Position numbers and translations under genes: made by a program. Of a DNA stretch of 37,972 bases, positions 7,561-14,672 are shown one piece after another. Source of the stretch: Elainella saxicola E1 (GTDB taxonomy: Bacteria; Cyanobacteriota; Cyanobacteriia; Elainellales; Elainellaceae); assembly GCA_002796835.1 (NCBI GenBank), contig LUGL01000008.1, positions 9,498 to 47,469 of the forward strand. Direction: 5' to 3'. Positions within the stretch are counted from its first letter, which is position 1. Each line of letters begins with the position of its first letter. Below the pieces are notes generated by a model. It ran no database searches, was not told the DNA's origin, and worked only from the letters and a program-made list of their open reading frames with translations.

Positions 7561-7576
7561 CTATCCTTTCGGATAG
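7561..7576. other. Short perfect hairpin after the ATPase cassette
   Basis: CTATCC-TTTC-GGATAG forms a perfect 6-bp stem with a 4-base loop, six bases after the stop of the third cassette gene. No T tract follows, so it is not a standard terminator. It may stabilise the 3' end of the cassette mRNA or mark the edge of the inserted block. Confidence 0.4.
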
Positions 7577-7653
7577 TGAAGTGTTGTCGCAATCGCGCCA
7601 GACTGGATAAACCGAATGAATAACGATATTGAGCAATCGAAGGGTAAGAAGCT

Positions 7654-8193
7654 GTGGAGATTATCACTAAACGATTTCTTCTCCGTGATTTTATTCAAGA
7701 GGATGAGCCTGCCTTTCTTGCTTATCATGCTGATCCTCGTTATGCCGAGTTCTGTTCGCCAGAAGAAGTGACACCTGTCTTTACACATCAACTGTTTCAA
7801 CGGTTCATGCAGTGGGCCACCGAAGAGCCGCGACGCAATTACCAGTTTGCGATCGTCGATCGCCGCAATCAGGAGTTAATTGGCTGTGGCGGATTGCGGT
7901 TGGAGAGTTATGCGGCTGAGCAGGCAGAACTTGGGATTGAGCTAGCACCGCAGTATTGGGGACGCTATGCTTATGCGATCGAAGTCGGGAAAGCTCTAAT
8001 TGATTTCGGGTTTCGCGATCTGGGACTGAAGGAAATTCTCGGTATTTCTGTAAGTGCTAACCTGAGGGTATCCCGGCTAGCAGAACGTTACGGATTCCAT
8101 GCTTCTGGTGTACGGCCTGGTCCTGACTGGATGCGTCTGCGAGGATGGAGTCAGATTGAGTGGCAGCTTACCAGAGAAGCGTGGCAGCACTGA
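7654..8193 (+). CDS. GNAT-family N-acetyltransferase (RimJ/RimL-like)
   Basis: A 179-residue acetyl-CoA-dependent acetyltransferase. It opens with the RimJ/RimL pattern ITKRFLLRDFIQEDEPAFL. The core strand ELGIELAPQYWGRYAYAIEVGKALIDFGF (residues about 90-118) holds the acetyl-CoA-binding turn (QYWGRYAYA). The following LGLKEILGISVSANLRVSRLAERYGF is the usual C-terminal part of this family. Start is GTG at 7654, preceded by an AGAAG-type sequence. It is the first gene after the ATPase cassette and returns to normal base composition, with CGATCG sites at 7848 and 7857. The acceptor substrate cannot be inferred. Confidence 0.88.
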   Translation: MEIITKRFLLRDFIQEDEPAFLAYHADPRYAEFCSPEEVTPVFTHQLFQRFMQWATEEPRRNYQFAIVDRRNQELIGCGGLRLESYAAEQAELGIELAPQYWGRYAYAIEVGKALIDFGFRDLGLKEILGISVSANLRVSRLAERYGFHASGVRPGPDWMRLRGWSQIEWQLTREAWQH

Positions 8194-10642: not shown

Positions 10643-11437
10643 ATGATGGAATGGACGATCGGATGGTGGCAGATTTCTATTCAACGAGTTTATCCCACCC
10701 CTCAGCAACTCTCGCAAACCTATAATCGGGCCGCTTCTTGGTGGCATCAGCATTTGCGCCTTCTGGGCTATGGTTATGCTTATCGAGCACTGTGGCAATC
10801 GCTAAAAAACACAGGAATGCTATCTCTCTGGAAGAACAACTCCCATATTTGTGATTGTGGAATCGAGACGGCAGCACTCAGTCTGAGCCTGGTTCAAACC
10901 ATCCATTCAACCCTGCAAATTACGGGTGTCGATCTCTCATCTGAAATGCTGAACATGGCCCATCAAAAACTCAACGACGGAAGGGTGATTCATCATCTTT
11001 GTTGCAGTGATGTCAGCAAATTACCTTTTGGCGATCGCTCCTTTGATGGGGTCATCAGTGCTCATCTGCTGGAACACTTGCCTGACCCAAAACAGGGATT
11101 ACAGGAAATGGTGAGAATCCTTCGTCCCAATGCGCCGCTGATGCTGATCGTAACCCGCATTGGACTCCTCGGAACGCTAATCCAATGGCATTGGGGCAAC
11201 CGATGTTTTAGCCCAAAAGAACTTTCCGCACTCATGCAGGAAGTAGGATTAGTCAACCTGCAATTTATCCCATTTCCCGTTGGACTGGCTCGCTTCAGCA
11301 GTATGGCGTGCATTGGATTTCGGAGGGAAGACGATGATGCAAAACAAAATGAGGCTGCGCTACGGATTGCTGCTGCTCGGGACGTTGATTGTGTTGGTGT
11401 TCCAACTCAGGACAATTGCCGCTCAGCCAACGCTTGA
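10643..11437 (+). CDS. Class I SAM-dependent methyltransferase
   Basis: A 264-residue methyltransferase-like protein. The SAM fold is seen from ICDCGIETAALSLSL (a degenerate motif I, lacking the usual GxGxG), through GVDLSSEMLNMAHQKL (acidic ribose-binding loop), LPFGDRSFDGVISAHLLEHL and RILRPNAPLMLIVTR. GAGG at 10635-10638 precedes the ATG. The reading frame overruns the start of the next gene by 104 bases, and the last 33 or so residues are low-complexity and unlike a methyltransferase tail. The authentic end may therefore be lost to a frameshift near 11330, where the next gene starts. Substrate unknown; the membrane-enzyme neighbours hint at a lipid or small metabolite. Confidence 0.82.
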   Translation: MMEWTIGWWQISIQRVYPTPQQLSQTYNRAASWWHQHLRLLGYGYAYRALWQSLKNTGMLSLWKNNSHICDCGIETAALSLSLVQTIHSTLQITGVDLSSEMLNMAHQKLNDGRVIHHLCCSDVSKLPFGDRSFDGVISAHLLEHLPDPKQGLQEMVRILRPNAPLMLIVTRIGLLGTLIQWHWGNRCFSPKELSALMQEVGLVNLQFIPFPVGLARFSSMACIGFRREDDDAKQNEAALRIAAARDVDCVGVPTQDNCRSANA

Positions 11438-12815
11438 GATGAAAATCGATCGCTTTATTACTCACCAGATGACCGCTCAACATCTTCCTGGATTAGCTCT
11501 GGCAATTACCCATGACAATCAGATATTGCATGTTAAAGGCTATGGCAAAGCGAATACTCAGCAACCTATCACGCCACAAACTCAATTTCCGATCGCCTCG
11601 CTGAGTAAATCCTTTACGGCTGTGGCAGTGCTGCAATTGGTGGAAGCCGGAGAAATTGACCTGGGTACTCCAGTGCGAAAATACCTGCCAGACTTTACAC
11701 TGGCTGACACCAAAACCGCTGATCAGATCACGATCCGTCATTTGTTGAATCACACCAGTGGATTGTCTGACCTCGGTTTTTCTGAATCATTCCTACCCCA
11801 GCCCACTACAAATGCAGAACGGGTAAAAAGTCTGTACAAGGCCCATCCTGTTGCGGCTCCTGGAACTCAATTTCACTATTTCAATCCCAACTACGATGTC
11901 TTAGCGAGAGTCGTGGAAGTGATGAGTGATCAATCTTTTGACGAGTATTTGCGATCGCACCTTTTCATACCCCTCCAGATGTCTCAGACGTTCCATGCTA
12001 CGACAATGGCTGAAGCACAGCAACAAGCCAACCATATGGCAACGGGACATTTAATGGCGTTTGCAATTCCGTTTGCGGCTCAAGAACTATCAGGCTATTT
12101 GGGTGGCAATGCTGGCGTTATTTCCACAGCAGAGGATATGGCAAAGTATTTGATTCTGCATAGTAATGGGGGACAGGTTGAGGGCACACAACTGCTAACT
12201 CCAGGCAGCATCGCTCTCATGCAGACGCCACCAACGCAACTCAAGAGCCCTTATGCAATGGGATGGTTTGCTACAACAGAAAATGGCAGGCAAATTCTCC
12301 AACATAACGGTATCTTGTCCACGTTTTATACCGATGTTGCTGTGTTGCCGCATGAAAAATATGGCATTGCCCTGCTCTACAACATTAGTGCATCATCGCT
12401 GATTGCGTTTGCCTTGCCCCAAATCAAATCTGGATTAATTCAATTACTCACAGATGAGACGCTTCCTCTAGATGGTTTCAGCATTAATCTCTGGGGTATC
12501 AGTCTCGCCATTTTAGCAACTATTGGCGTCGCACTAGCAATTTATAGCCTGCTGCATTTTCCTCAATGGAAACGAAAAATCCACACGGCACCCGAATGGC
12601 AGATCCGATCGGGCATCGCATGGATGTTTTTTCCTACAGTCGTATTGCTTGCAATGCCCTGGCTGGTGGAAATGACGAGCGATCGCATCTTCAACTACCA
12701 GCAATTATTTCGGGCCATGCCGGATGTTATGCTTTGGCTGGGGTTATGTGCAGCACTTGGTTTCATCAACGGAACGATCCGTCTGATTGCTTGCGCCAAT
12801 AATAGGCAGTCATAA
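11334..12815 (+). CDS. Serine beta-lactamase-like hydrolase (class C/AmpC-EstB family) with C-terminal membrane segments
   Basis: A 493-residue secreted or membrane-anchored serine hydrolase. A signal-type hydrophobic helix occupies residues 10-30 (GLLLLGTLIVLVFQL). The catalytic SxxK is S89-L-S-K92, and the YxN-like motif is HYFNPNYDV (about residue 182). The HNG near residue 325 (LQHNGIL) stands in for KTG. Three C-terminal hydrophobic segments (about 385-475) would hold it in the membrane. I chose ATG 11334 because GGAGG at 11322-11326 lies 7 bases upstream. Relatives are penicillin-binding-protein-like peptidases or esterases; resistance should not be assumed. The 3' end of this gene is partly duplicated at 14075-14186. 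Confidence 0.9.
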   Translation: MMQNKMRLRYGLLLLGTLIVLVFQLRTIAAQPTLEMKIDRFITHQMTAQHLPGLALAITHDNQILHVKGYGKANTQQPITPQTQFPIASLSKSFTAVAVLQLVEAGEIDLGTPVRKYLPDFTLADTKTADQITIRHLLNHTSGLSDLGFSESFLPQPTTNAERVKSLYKAHPVAAPGTQFHYFNPNYDVLARVVEVMSDQSFDEYLRSHLFIPLQMSQTFHATTMAEAQQQANHMATGHLMAFAIPFAAQELSGYLGGNAGVISTAEDMAKYLILHSNGGQVEGTQLLTPGSIALMQTPPTQLKSPYAMGWFATTENGRQILQHNGILSTFYTDVAVLPHEKYGIALLYNISASSLIAFALPQIKSGLIQLLTDETLPLDGFSINLWGISLAILATIGVALAIYSLLHFPQWKRKIHTAPEWQIRSGIAWMFFPTVVLLAMPWLVEMTSDRIFNYQQLFRAMPDVMLWLGLCAALGFINGTIRLIACANNRQS

Positions 12816-12827
12816 GGAAAATGAAAG

Positions 12828-14072
12828 ATGAGCAAGCTTAACATGGCACGAAAATTTCCCAGGTTCCCGTTAAAAGCCTTGCCGCTTCAATTCATTAGCT
12901 TTGCCTGTGCCTATTTGCCCAGAAGAGTCGATCCCTTGATTGTTAAGGCTGCTGAGCAAATACTCTCAACGGCGGTGGGTCATCCAATTCAATTGACGCA
13001 AGTCGAGTTTATTTCTAAAAGAGGCAGGAGAAATTTATTACTACGATGTCATTGTTCCTCTGAGGCTGGTTTGCCTCCTAGCTTGATTATTAAAAAGGTG
13101 GAAGCAAATGCTTATAACCCAAACGATCCAACCTCGTGGGACACATTGCGGTTCTTCAGAGATTGGATCGGTGCCCAATTCTTAAGCACAATATCCGATC
13201 AGTACCCGCATAGCCCCCGCTTTTATGGTGGCGATCTGAGGTTAGGCTTCATTATTTTGGAGGATGTGCCGCATCAGGCCCGTTTAGTTGAATCTCTTCT
13301 AGGAGACGATCGCAATCAAGCAGAACAGGCACTGCTTCAGTATGCAGCTTGTTTAGGACAACTTCATACTGCCACGATCGGCAAGGCAGCAGAATTTGAG
13401 GAACTGTTTCAGACAATTGCTCCCCAGGTAAAACCGGCGAAAGAAACTGTGAACATTTACCAGCATCAATCGATCCTAGAGAAGTTAGGAATTCAGCCTG
13501 AGACTCATTGGCTGCATGACTTGAACGCGATCGAAGAAGCCATCAATCATCCAGGTGACTTTCTTGCTTATATCCATGCCGATGCTTGCCCCGATAATGT
13601 TTTAGATACCGGTGAAGGATTACGGCTGATTGATTTTGAAACGGGTCGGTTCGGTCATGCTCTGATGGATGCCGCTTATGGCAGAATGATGTTTCCTAGC
13701 TGTTGGTGTGCGAACCGATTGCCTCATCCTATCGTTCAACAAATGGAAGACACCTATCGGACGATTCTGAGCCAACGGTGTCTAGCCGCACAAGACGATC
13801 GCATCTTTGAATCTGCTCTAGTCAAAATATGCGGTTTTTGGCTTTTGAATACCCTGGTACGGCATCTTGAATCTGCTCTAAAAAAAGACTCAAACTGGGG
13901 AATTTCAACGACTCGTCAGCGAATTTTAGCTCGATTAGAAGTGTTCATTACAACAGCCCAGGCATTTCATCAACTTCCTGCTTTGTGCAGCACTGCTAGT
14001 CGGCTTTTAGATCTGTTGCAACAGCGTTGGAGAGGTACGCCTTCTCTCCCCGATTATCCAGCATTTAGATGA
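12828..14072 (+). CDS. Aminoglycoside phosphotransferase/choline kinase-like protein (APH family)
   Basis: A 414-residue protein kinase-like small-molecule phosphotransferase. The catalytic loop is IHADACPDN (H250, D252, N257) and the metal-binding motif is LRLIDFETG near residues 266-274. The N-lobe includes LIIKKVEANAY, with a probable ATP-contacting lysine. ATG 12828 has a GAAAG-type site just upstream. It begins 12 bases after the hydrolase gene. The gene lies between two copies of the hydrolase 3' end (12567-12815 and 14075-14186), suggesting it came in with, or split, a tandem duplication. The substrate could be a sugar, an alcohol or an antibiotic; none can be chosen. Confidence 0.87.
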   Translation: MSKLNMARKFPRFPLKALPLQFISFACAYLPRRVDPLIVKAAEQILSTAVGHPIQLTQVEFISKRGRRNLLLRCHCSSEAGLPPSLIIKKVEANAYNPNDPTSWDTLRFFRDWIGAQFLSTISDQYPHSPRFYGGDLRLGFIILEDVPHQARLVESLLGDDRNQAEQALLQYAACLGQLHTATIGKAAEFEELFQTIAPQVKPAKETVNIYQHQSILEKLGIQPETHWLHDLNAIEEAINHPGDFLAYIHADACPDNVLDTGEGLRLIDFETGRFGHALMDAAYGRMMFPSCWCANRLPHPIVQQMEDTYRTILSQRCLAAQDDRIFESALVKICGFWLLNTLVRHLESALKKDSNWGISTTRQRILARLEVFITTAQAFHQLPALCSTASRLLDLLQQRWRGTPSLPDYPAFR

Positions 14073-14074
14073 CT

Positions 14075-14186
14075 ATGGTGGAAACGAAAGATCCACGCGA
14101 CACCCAAATGGCAAATTCTATTGGATATCGCATGGATGTTTTTCCAGGAATACGTCTTATTGCTTGCGCCAATAATGGGCTGTCAT
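14075..14186 (+). pseudogene. Decayed duplicate of the 3' end of the upstream beta-lactamase-like gene
   Basis: From 14078 the + strand reads W-K-R-K-I-H-A-T-P-K-W-Q-I...I-A-W-M-F-F, matching WKRKIHTAPEWQI...IAWMFF encoded at 12567-12632 of the hydrolase gene. It then jumps to a match with the last bases of that gene. The jump falls exactly on ATTGCTTGC. This 9-mer occurs twice in the intact copy (12644-12652 and 12786-12794) and once here (14159-14167), so about 142 bases were lost by recombination between the short repeats. The remnant has no start and overlaps the 3' end of the minus-strand DUF1579 gene. Confidence 0.8.
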
Positions 14187-14672
14187 AAACTGCTGCCACT
14201 GCCCATCATCACTCAACATATGGGAGGTCAAGACTCGATGATTGTCGCTCTTGAACTCGATCACATCTTTGTACTTTCCTATTTTCTTCTCATCCGTCAT
14301 ATCAGGTCCATCGGAATTAAGCGTTAGCACAGTTTCGCCTTCATCCAATTCACCGTCGTATTGCCAAAGATACGTCATTATTGACCCAACCCAAGTGCCC
14401 ACATAACGCTGTTTCTGTGGATCGTAGCCAAGCGTCATCAGTGTTGTCGCAGGACCACAACCAGGCATCTCACCCTGCCCTTCCGCCAATGTCCAAAATC
14501 CACCCAGCGATCGCACAGTTTCAGTTCCCGTTGATTTTACGGGAGGTTGGTCTGGTCCCATCATTGCTTCAATCTCATAGGTCCATTCACCAACTAGTTT
14601 CTGGAGCCACTGATGTTCTTTTTGCGGTTGAGCAGGCATGGGGGAGGTTTGTTCGGTTTGAGTAGTTTCCAT
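14157..14672 (-). CDS. DUF1579 family protein
   Basis: A 171-residue soluble protein of the DUF1579 family. Landmarks are HQWLQKLVGEWTYE, ETVRSLGGFWTLAEGQGEM, TLGYDPQKQRYVGTWVGS and the C-terminal MTAHYWRKQ. The fold is likely a lipocalin- or calycin-like barrel, with unknown ligand. Start is ATG at 14672 with AGGAA upstream; the frame is open to 14780 but would overlap the upstream gene. It is the last gene of the minus-strand DGPF/VOC operon. Its 3' end overlaps the hydrolase remnant. The same terminal codons appear antisense at the very end of the intact hydrolase gene, showing an old convergent arrangement. Confidence 0.88.
   Translation of the reverse strand: METTQTEQTSPMPAQPQKEHQWLQKLVGEWTYEIEAMMGPDQPPVKSTGTETVRSLGGFWTLAEGQGEMPGCGPATTLMTLGYDPQKQRYVGTWVGSIMTYLWQYDGELDEGETVLTLNSDGPDMTDEKKIGKYKDVIEFKSDNHRVLTSHMLSDDGQWQQFMTAHYWRKQ

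Follow-up and report, generated by a model that had tools for sequence, protein, structure and literature searches.

A kinase gene between two copies of a shared gene end in Elainella saxicola, one copy probably kept as a 3′ hairpin of a DUF1579 gene

A gene that lies between two neighbors, with the end of one neighbor repeated on its far side, raises the question of how it entered and why the second copy of that end is still there. Here we address this question for a 37,972-nt stretch of Elainella saxicola E1 (contig LUGL01000008.1, positions 9,498 to 47,469 of the forward strand; hereafter the window), in which a serine hydrolase gene and a kinase gene on the plus strand face a DUF1579 gene on the minus strand. 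The explanation that we prefer, and consider likely as a whole, is that the hydrolase and DUF1579 once shared an overlapping 3′ end, that this end was duplicated when the kinase entered, and that the second copy (copy B) has been kept as a putative terminator or stabilizer of DUF1579. Copy B survives mainly as an RNA hairpin that probably ends or protects the DUF1579 transcript.

A duplicated gene end around the kinase

The duplication can be seen as two pairs of direct repeats: the first 65 nt of the segment (12567-12631 and 14079-14143) are 85% identical and the last 39 nt (12777-12815 and 14150-14188) are 90% identical, and BLASTN aligns the hydrolase 3′ end with the second copy at E = 2e-15 and 2e-8. 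When the whole E. saxicola genome (G000) was queried with the hydrolase 3′ end, its own place and the second copy were the sole matches (E up to 0.001). An earlier note on this DNA had reported a copy of the hydrolase C-terminus near 14075-14186; the copy is real, in that 12567-12815 recurs in shortened form at 14079-14188, and the two peptide ends named there are both present, MTAHYWRKQ at the end of DUF1579 and MTAYYWRKQ antisense at the end of the hydrolase. The features concerned are as follows.

Whole window, G000:C2:9498-47469: gene order hydrolase (+), kinase (+), DUF1579 (-)
11337..12815, plus: serine hydrolase gene, Beta-lactamase family PF00144, 492 aa, stop codon included (Pfam E=3e-70)
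12567..12815, plus: copy A, the duplicated segment as it stands in the intact gene, from hydrolase codon 411 to the stop (direct repeats, junction alignment)
12579..12625, minus: copy A hairpin, antisense within the hydrolase gene (covariance model match G000:C2:22073-22124; fold)
12777..12815, minus: fossil DUF1579 3′ end (antisense MTAYYWRKQ) that ends the hydrolase (90% identity to 14150-14188; tail absent in 4 outgroup hydrolases)
12816..12827, plus: 12-nt leader from hydrolase stop to kinase start (near-identical in kinase-bearing relatives, G133 excepted)
12828..14072, plus: kinase gene, APH-type phosphotransferase, 414 aa (Pfam PF01636 E=9.9e-10)
14079..14188, plus: copy B, the remnant, in which 110 nt of the 249-nt segment remain (direct repeats, junction alignment)
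14080..14090, minus: U-rich stretch past the hairpin, CTTTCGTTTCC on the DUF1579 strand (sequence)
14091..14137, minus: hairpin on the DUF1579 strand, 17-bp stem and 13-nt loop, conserved across 7 remnants (fold, conservation)
14157..14672, minus: DUF1579 gene, 171 aa, stop codon included, final codons within copy B (Pfam PF07617 E=7e-68)

For the hydrolase, the second ATG-type start was chosen. DUF1579 passes its Pfam gathering cut-off by a wide margin (227.8 against 25.2 bits), and what lies between the two copies amounts to the kinase gene and its 12-nt leader.

Gene order before the insertion and afterwards

Relatives of the hydrolase (E<1e-60) are rare: the family has them in 2 of 36 genomes and the class in 9 of 388, the genome itself included. 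Those of the kinase (E<1e-30) were found in 10 of 388 and those of DUF1579 (E<1e-40) in 73 of 388. The genomes named most often below are Oscillatoriophycideae cyanobacterium NC_groundwater_1537 (G015), Pantanalinema sp. GBBB05 (G104, with two copies of the locus), Scytolyngbya sp. HA4215-MV1 (G050), Leptolyngbyaceae cyanobacterium C42_A2020_001 (G133) and Cyanobacteria bacterium FACHB-502 (G008). Among the matches listed for the hydrolase 3′ end, cyanobacterial loci were considered and the non-cyanobacterial ones (L039, L040, L042-L064) were set aside.

A hydrolase followed by a kinase, or by a piece of one, occurs at six loci (the window, G015, G104 copy 1, G133, G212 and G303), and the kinase is damaged in G212 by an internal deletion and in G303, where the first 123 residues remain. 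As the earlier note had anticipated, genomes also exist in which the hydrolase is directly convergent with DUF1579 and no kinase is present, namely G050, G104 copy 2 and G008 (hydrolase truncated), all with a 32-nt overlap; further kinase-free loci, in G270, G028, G007, G183 and on a second G086 contig, hold decayed hydrolase pieces convergent with DUF1579. Past the kinase, G015, G104 copy 1 and G212 likewise show the similarity seen at 14075-14186. The DUF1579 gene of the second Pantanalinema copy (L034:9388-9900) carries two in-frame stops.

The direction of change can be read from the hydrolase tails. All four outgroup hydrolases, which lie away from DUF1579, have LARSN.. tails (LARSNRLDAVS in Nodosilinea L036, LARSNGSEY in Nostoc L037, LARSNGLEY in Symplocastrum L038 and LARSNGLDAVS in G298 L071). 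In the two sequences of the hydrolase group covered by this comparison, the tails (IACANNRQS in the window, IAYADNGRS in G050) are the antisense of DUF1579 FMTAHYWRK, and all 12 DUF1579 genes compared that have no adjoining hydrolase keep a similar end (MTxxY, then W/R/Q, then R). Because the outgroup tails differ while lone DUF1579 genes keep their end, the antisense of DUF1579 was the source of the hydrolase tail; and because the window hydrolase retains this tail though DUF1579 now lies 1.4 kb away, the overlap preceded the insertion. On these comparisons, a single segment joined to both the hydrolase body and the DUF1579 body must have existed before the duplication. The convergent, overlapping order proposed in the earlier note is supported by the kinase-free relatives as well as by the polarity of the tails, and the arrival of the kinase between duplicated junctions by the repeat pair and the relatives.

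Since four loci (the window, G015, G104 copy 1 and G212) share the hydrolase codon with which the remnant begins, directly past the kinase stop, the kinase insertion was probably one event; the leader is common to these four and G303, with small changes. An assembly artefact might be suspected given that some of the assemblies are metagenome-derived, but the same junctions recur in 4 separate assemblies whose hydrolases are ~80% identical to that of the window, and we regard this possibility as practically negligible. G133 deviates in that the hydrolase tail is lost, the kinase end is different and no remnant stands behind the kinase; its remnant sits with DUF1579 on another contig. The G303 locus (L082 and L118) has been broken apart, with the hydrolase and the start of the kinase at 4.637 Mb and DUF1579 with the remnant at 3.048 Mb of the same contig.

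It would be tempting to take every kinase-free locus as ancestral. This was rejected, because two kinase-free loci nest among kinase-bearing ones in the hydrolase tree: G050 and G104 copy 1 are sisters (93/95), with G212 next to them (86/93), and G270 and G133 are sisters (100/100). Trees in which the five kinase-bearing hydrolases of the window, G015, G104, G212 and G303 were forced into one clade were rejected as well (approximately unbiased test, p-AU 6e-11), also when G133 was added to the clade and the tree held G270 and G008 (p-AU 2e-69). Placing G104 copy 2 and G008 both outside the rest gave p-AU 0.035, and placing G104 copy 2 alone outside in a smaller tree gave 0.37. The 3′ end of G050 is a mosaic, with kinase-side letters until GATCCGTCT and DUF1579-side letters beyond; its lack of a kinase looks like a secondary loss, and we read this as excision of the kinase through recombination between short repeats. 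In G270 the hydrolase end is lost too. Because the DUF1579 tree disagrees with the hydrolase tree on G050, grouping it with G015 instead (100/97), the flanks seem to have been mixed by recombination. The history drawn in the earlier note is therefore supported overall, but it missed that kinase-free loci are not automatically ancestral, that the deletion in copy B lies elsewhere, and that the remnant is constrained, apparently as an RNA hairpin.

As regards the deletion, copy A measures 249 nt and copy B 110, so that 139 nt net have been lost. The earlier note had placed a single deletion exactly between two ATTGCTTGC repeats; we reject this model, as the net loss, the flanking letters and the deletion ends of relatives all disagree with it. 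The ATTGCTTGC words lie 142 nt apart (12644 and 12786), and the remnant letters preceding ATTGCTTGC (GGAATACGTCTT) agree with those that precede the second word in G008 (GGAACGATACGTCTT), not with those that precede the first. The first word is found in the decayed G028 and is missing from the other five kinase-side copies, from kinase-free G050 and G104 copy 2, and from G008. Moreover, the deletion ends differ by group, the window agreeing with G133, G015 with G104 and G212, and G303 standing by itself. The hydrolase 3′ end also carries a 27-nt insert at a GATCGCATC site in G008 (L087) and, slightly altered, in the second G086 contig (L176).

Taken together, the comparisons show three steps. 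The hydrolase lost its own tail and came to end within the antisense of convergent DUF1579, with the last 32 nt shared; the kinase and its leader were then placed directly past the hydrolase stop; and the hydrolase end, from codon 411 to the stop, was repeated past the kinase stop, which left each neighbor with a whole 3′ end.

The remnant core and its hairpin

Copy B had been called decayed, and in so far as it has been shortened by deletions this stands; its core at 14091-14136, however, is conserved. This 46-nt core has a mean identity of 0.881 among seven remnants (21 pairs; range 0.82-0.93) and of 0.745 in six intact kinase-side copies (15 pairs). The seven remnants are those left after G183, whose core is too diverged (its own hairpin has z -7.2), and G028 and G007, in which the segment is lost. 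Synonymous differences in DUF1579 reach 0.42-0.51 among the window, G015, G212 and G303 (6 pairs), and at DUF1579 synonymous rates core differences as few as those observed have a probability of 2e-10 to 3e-7 (computed for 5 of the 21 pairs). These values suggest that the remnant is not free to decay but is under constraint, apparently as an RNA hairpin.

On the minus strand a stable hairpin forms in all seven remnants (-23.1 to -37.2 kcal/mol, z -5.3 to -8.8). Standard pairs fill 95.8% of the 119 pair cells of the remnants on the DUF1579 strand, against at most 46.6% in slid versions; on the kinase strand 82.4% of the remnant cells pair, lower because 17 G-U cells become A-C. In nine coding copies 93.5% of the cells are paired and three pairs carry changes in both partners (9 of 500 shuffles reach this level), and the second G086 copy, a row placed by hand, shows a C-G to U-A change. 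The homologous place lacks a hairpin in all four outgroup hydrolases (z +1.2 to +1.4). A covariance model built from 12 of 16 hairpin sequences, run with filters that lose weak matches, gave 27 matches (E up to 0.01) in 10 of the 388 genomes, 26 of them in hydrolase 3′ ends or beside DUF1579; the remaining one (G355, E 0.005) lies in 10 kb of DNA where none of eight proteins from the window cluster has a match. An Rfam covariance search of 12500-14300 gave 0 matches up to E=1. Separately, the Nodosilinea L036 hydrolase contains an unrelated inverted repeat (CAATGGAG / CTCCATTG, ~7563-7618, -22.8 kcal/mol) ~20 nt upstream of the homologous place, in a locus with no DUF1579 match.

We also simulated the decay of the hairpin by placing the observed substitutions randomly on the G008 sequence and comparing the resulting hairpin strength (G086, with one gap, and G183 were left out). 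For a hairpin as strong as the real one to arise, the six remnants gave P of 0.030, 0.002, 0.004, 0.004, 0.006 and 0.062, the six intact kinase-side copies 0.10-0.49, G050 0.46 and G104 copy 2 0.05; hairpin strength is kept in most remnants and is drifting in the intact copies. This fits a hydrolase copy that was relieved of constraint once a second copy existed, with G050 as a former kinase-side copy.

The remnant might nevertheless be a plain piece of pseudogene, in which the overlapping DUF1579 codons alone are kept and the rest is similar by chance or through recent gene conversion. Its middle part has been lost differently among the remnants, and the codon overlap accounts for the conserved last part without any role for RNA. 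However, the conserved core lies outside the DUF1579 codons, and hairpin strength is kept in the simulation. Gene conversion is further opposed by the finding that the remnant cores resemble the intact copy of their own genome less (0.70-0.85, 6 genomes) than they resemble each other on average. We consider this alternative unlikely.

What the hairpin does is suggested by its surroundings. Intrinsic (Rho-independent) terminators are laid out as a hairpin with a U-rich tail past a stop codon. In seven remnants a strong hairpin stands ~20-60 nt past the DUF1579 stop codon, in the manner of such terminators, and a U-rich stretch follows it in most copies, with 6-8 T in the 12 nt directly past the stem at 7 of 8 remnant loci; pairing that survives G-U changes is a further likeness (compare PMC5381666). 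Unlike known intrinsic terminators, the window hairpin, a putative terminator, would have arisen in the coding sequence of a neighbor and then been duplicated away. Rho is absent from cyanobacteria, according to PMC13289151. A 3′ hairpin with z below -2 follows DUF1579 in 12 of 13 loci with a history beside the hydrolase, G050 (-0.4) being the exception, although G028, G007 and G183 score through another hairpin or place (28 of 33 loci tested, G270, G033, L026, L111 and L113 being excluded; 15 shuffles each). G028 (L085) and G007 (L086) have other strong palindromes, from ~48 and ~106 nt behind DUF1579, in their decayed hydrolase ends. We infer that the hairpin of copy B is putatively a terminator as first choice and a 3′-end stabilizer as second.

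The second choice can be widened: the hairpin may stabilize the 3′ end of the DUF1579 mRNA, or may be a two-strand signal that also ends the kinase transcript. The plus strand folds too (-12.3 to -29.2 kcal/mol in the seven remnants), the window has TGTTTTTCC past this fold, and many cyanobacterial transcript ends are not canonical intrinsic terminators, as stated in PMC13289151. On the other hand, the minus strand pairs better, and on that strand the 12 nt past the stem include 6 or more T at 7 of 8 remnant loci. Such a role overlaps with the explanation preferred here and is not exclusive of it; taken by itself it seems possible, yet clearly the less probable choice.

Several observations weigh against a retained terminator or stabilizer. 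The core is short, and divergence is lower in some of the pairs that bear remnants (in the kinase, synonymous differences of 0.31 for G104-G133 and 0.34 for G015-G104), which makes conservation less informative for them. The six intact kinase-side copies still fold, albeit more weakly (-12.0 to -25.0 kcal/mol, z -2.7 to -5.4), so that the contrast with the remnants is one of degree. Excess covariation is absent from the seven remnants (268 of 500 shuffles as high; 0 pairs changed on both sides), so that the support comes from stability and conservation, and the use of G008 as the start of the simulation is a choice. The G133 stem is followed by few U (2 of 12), and G050, in which the hydrolase again overlaps DUF1579, has an eroded hairpin in its 3′ region (z -0.4); the hairpin is therefore not indispensable. 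Of 15 DUF1579 loci without a hydrolase history, only 7 show a 3′ hairpin with z below -2. A pattern scan for terminators with a loop limit of 3-8 gave 3 sites, the hairpin with its loop of 13 not among them, and in Synechococcus elongatus 22% of transcription units show canonical intrinsic terminator features (PMC13289151). A promoter scan of the window gave no lead.

If the preferred explanation holds, the 3′ signal of DUF1579 would before the insertion have lain antisense inside the hydrolase gene, and copy B would have been retained since DUF1579 needs its final codons and the 17-bp hairpin with its U-rich stretch, as intrinsic terminator or 3′-end stabilizer of its mRNA. Once the segment was duplicated, nothing would any longer have kept the spacer between codons and hairpin from shrinking, or the hairpin in the intact hydrolase from drifting. 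Copying may have taken place by template switching, or through a single crossover with a circle that bore the hydrolase end plus the kinase. The duplicated segment starts within a few nt of the point at which the DUF1579 transcript would end if the hairpin terminates it. Copy B could therefore also descend from the 3′ end of that transcript itself, reverse-transcribed or templated at a stalled polymerase, and 3′-end modules made of last codons and terminator might let new genes enter between overlapping convergent genes. We regard this last reading as very doubtful.

The kinase and likeness to known systems

The kinase passes the gathering cut-off of the APH family (PF01636; 39 bits against 23.2) and evolves under constraint, as indicated by a ratio of nonsynonymous to synonymous rates (dN/dS) of 0.13-0.20 (15 pairs). 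Its one solved relative by sequence at E up to 0.01 is the corramycin phosphotransferase ComG (PDB 8agy, E=1.7e-18). Given this relationship, the kinase is predicted as likely to act on a small molecule. The source of the kinase was not located among the genomes compared, a PHROG search with it gave no match, and no plasmid source was found, the relatives being at most 33% identical among 10 of 28 matches listed (phage records lay outside this search).

Some integrative elements restore the 3′ end of their target gene, leaving it on both sides of the insert. The hydrolase 3′ end flanks the kinase in the same way, and these direct repeats are what a mobile cassette would leave had it integrated site-specifically into the hydrolase 3′ end and restored it by a carried copy. 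Yet the insert is one gene with neither integrase nor recombinase, and the repeat was long (~249 nt); the PHROG and plasmid results are against a cassette as well. Around the G140, G142, G055 and G101 kinases, a protein search found no hydrolase end, and BLASTN (E up to 1e-3) found one at the DUF1579 end of G140 alone. A faint hint of a wider association of kinase and remnant comes from G142 (L095, kinase stop 8111-8113, minus strand), where 16 of 17 nt match the window remnant 30 nt past the kinase stop (32 nt in the window); 0 of 200 shuffles were as high, in one of 24 comparisons, and the match may be an old remnant or chance. If real, it would be a weak lead that kinase and remnant were together before the G142 kinase branched off. 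On balance, a cassette appears very unlikely.

The order proposed here for the hydrolase and DUF1579 resembles the overlapping convergent 3′ transcripts, or excludon, described in a review (PMC7154746), which also states that termination sites of neighbors frequently lie within adjacent coding sequence; unlike an excludon, the overlap would have been resolved by duplication when a gene entered. A literature search at the level of search results gave no recognized case of duplication-mediated insertion between overlapping convergent genes, and none of a pseudogene turned terminator, or of a terminator within the opposite gene, that matches this locus.

The locus offers a readable case in which a gene enters between two genes that share an end and the shared end is copied, one for each neighbor. 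It suggests that a pseudogene-like stretch can be the 3′ signal of a neighbor and that a terminator-like hairpin can exist antisense within a protein-coding gene, both of which gene-order studies, and terminator predictors that ignore coding sequence, would overlook.

Two minor observations concern neighboring genes. In G140 (L096), which has no hydrolase, a DUF1579-DUF899 cluster lies ~5 kb, and DJ-1 and methyltransferase genes 3.5 kb, away from a kinase relative; kinase, DJ-1, methyltransferase, DUF899, DUF1579 and a sigma-like gene fall within 15 kb, with a TnpB-like gene between (sigma-like and TnpB-like were assigned by eye). The methyltransferase frame of the window (10643-11437) extends into the start of the hydrolase gene, its G140 relative stops at residue 228, and the last ~36 codons of the window frame look like read-on into hydrolase DNA.

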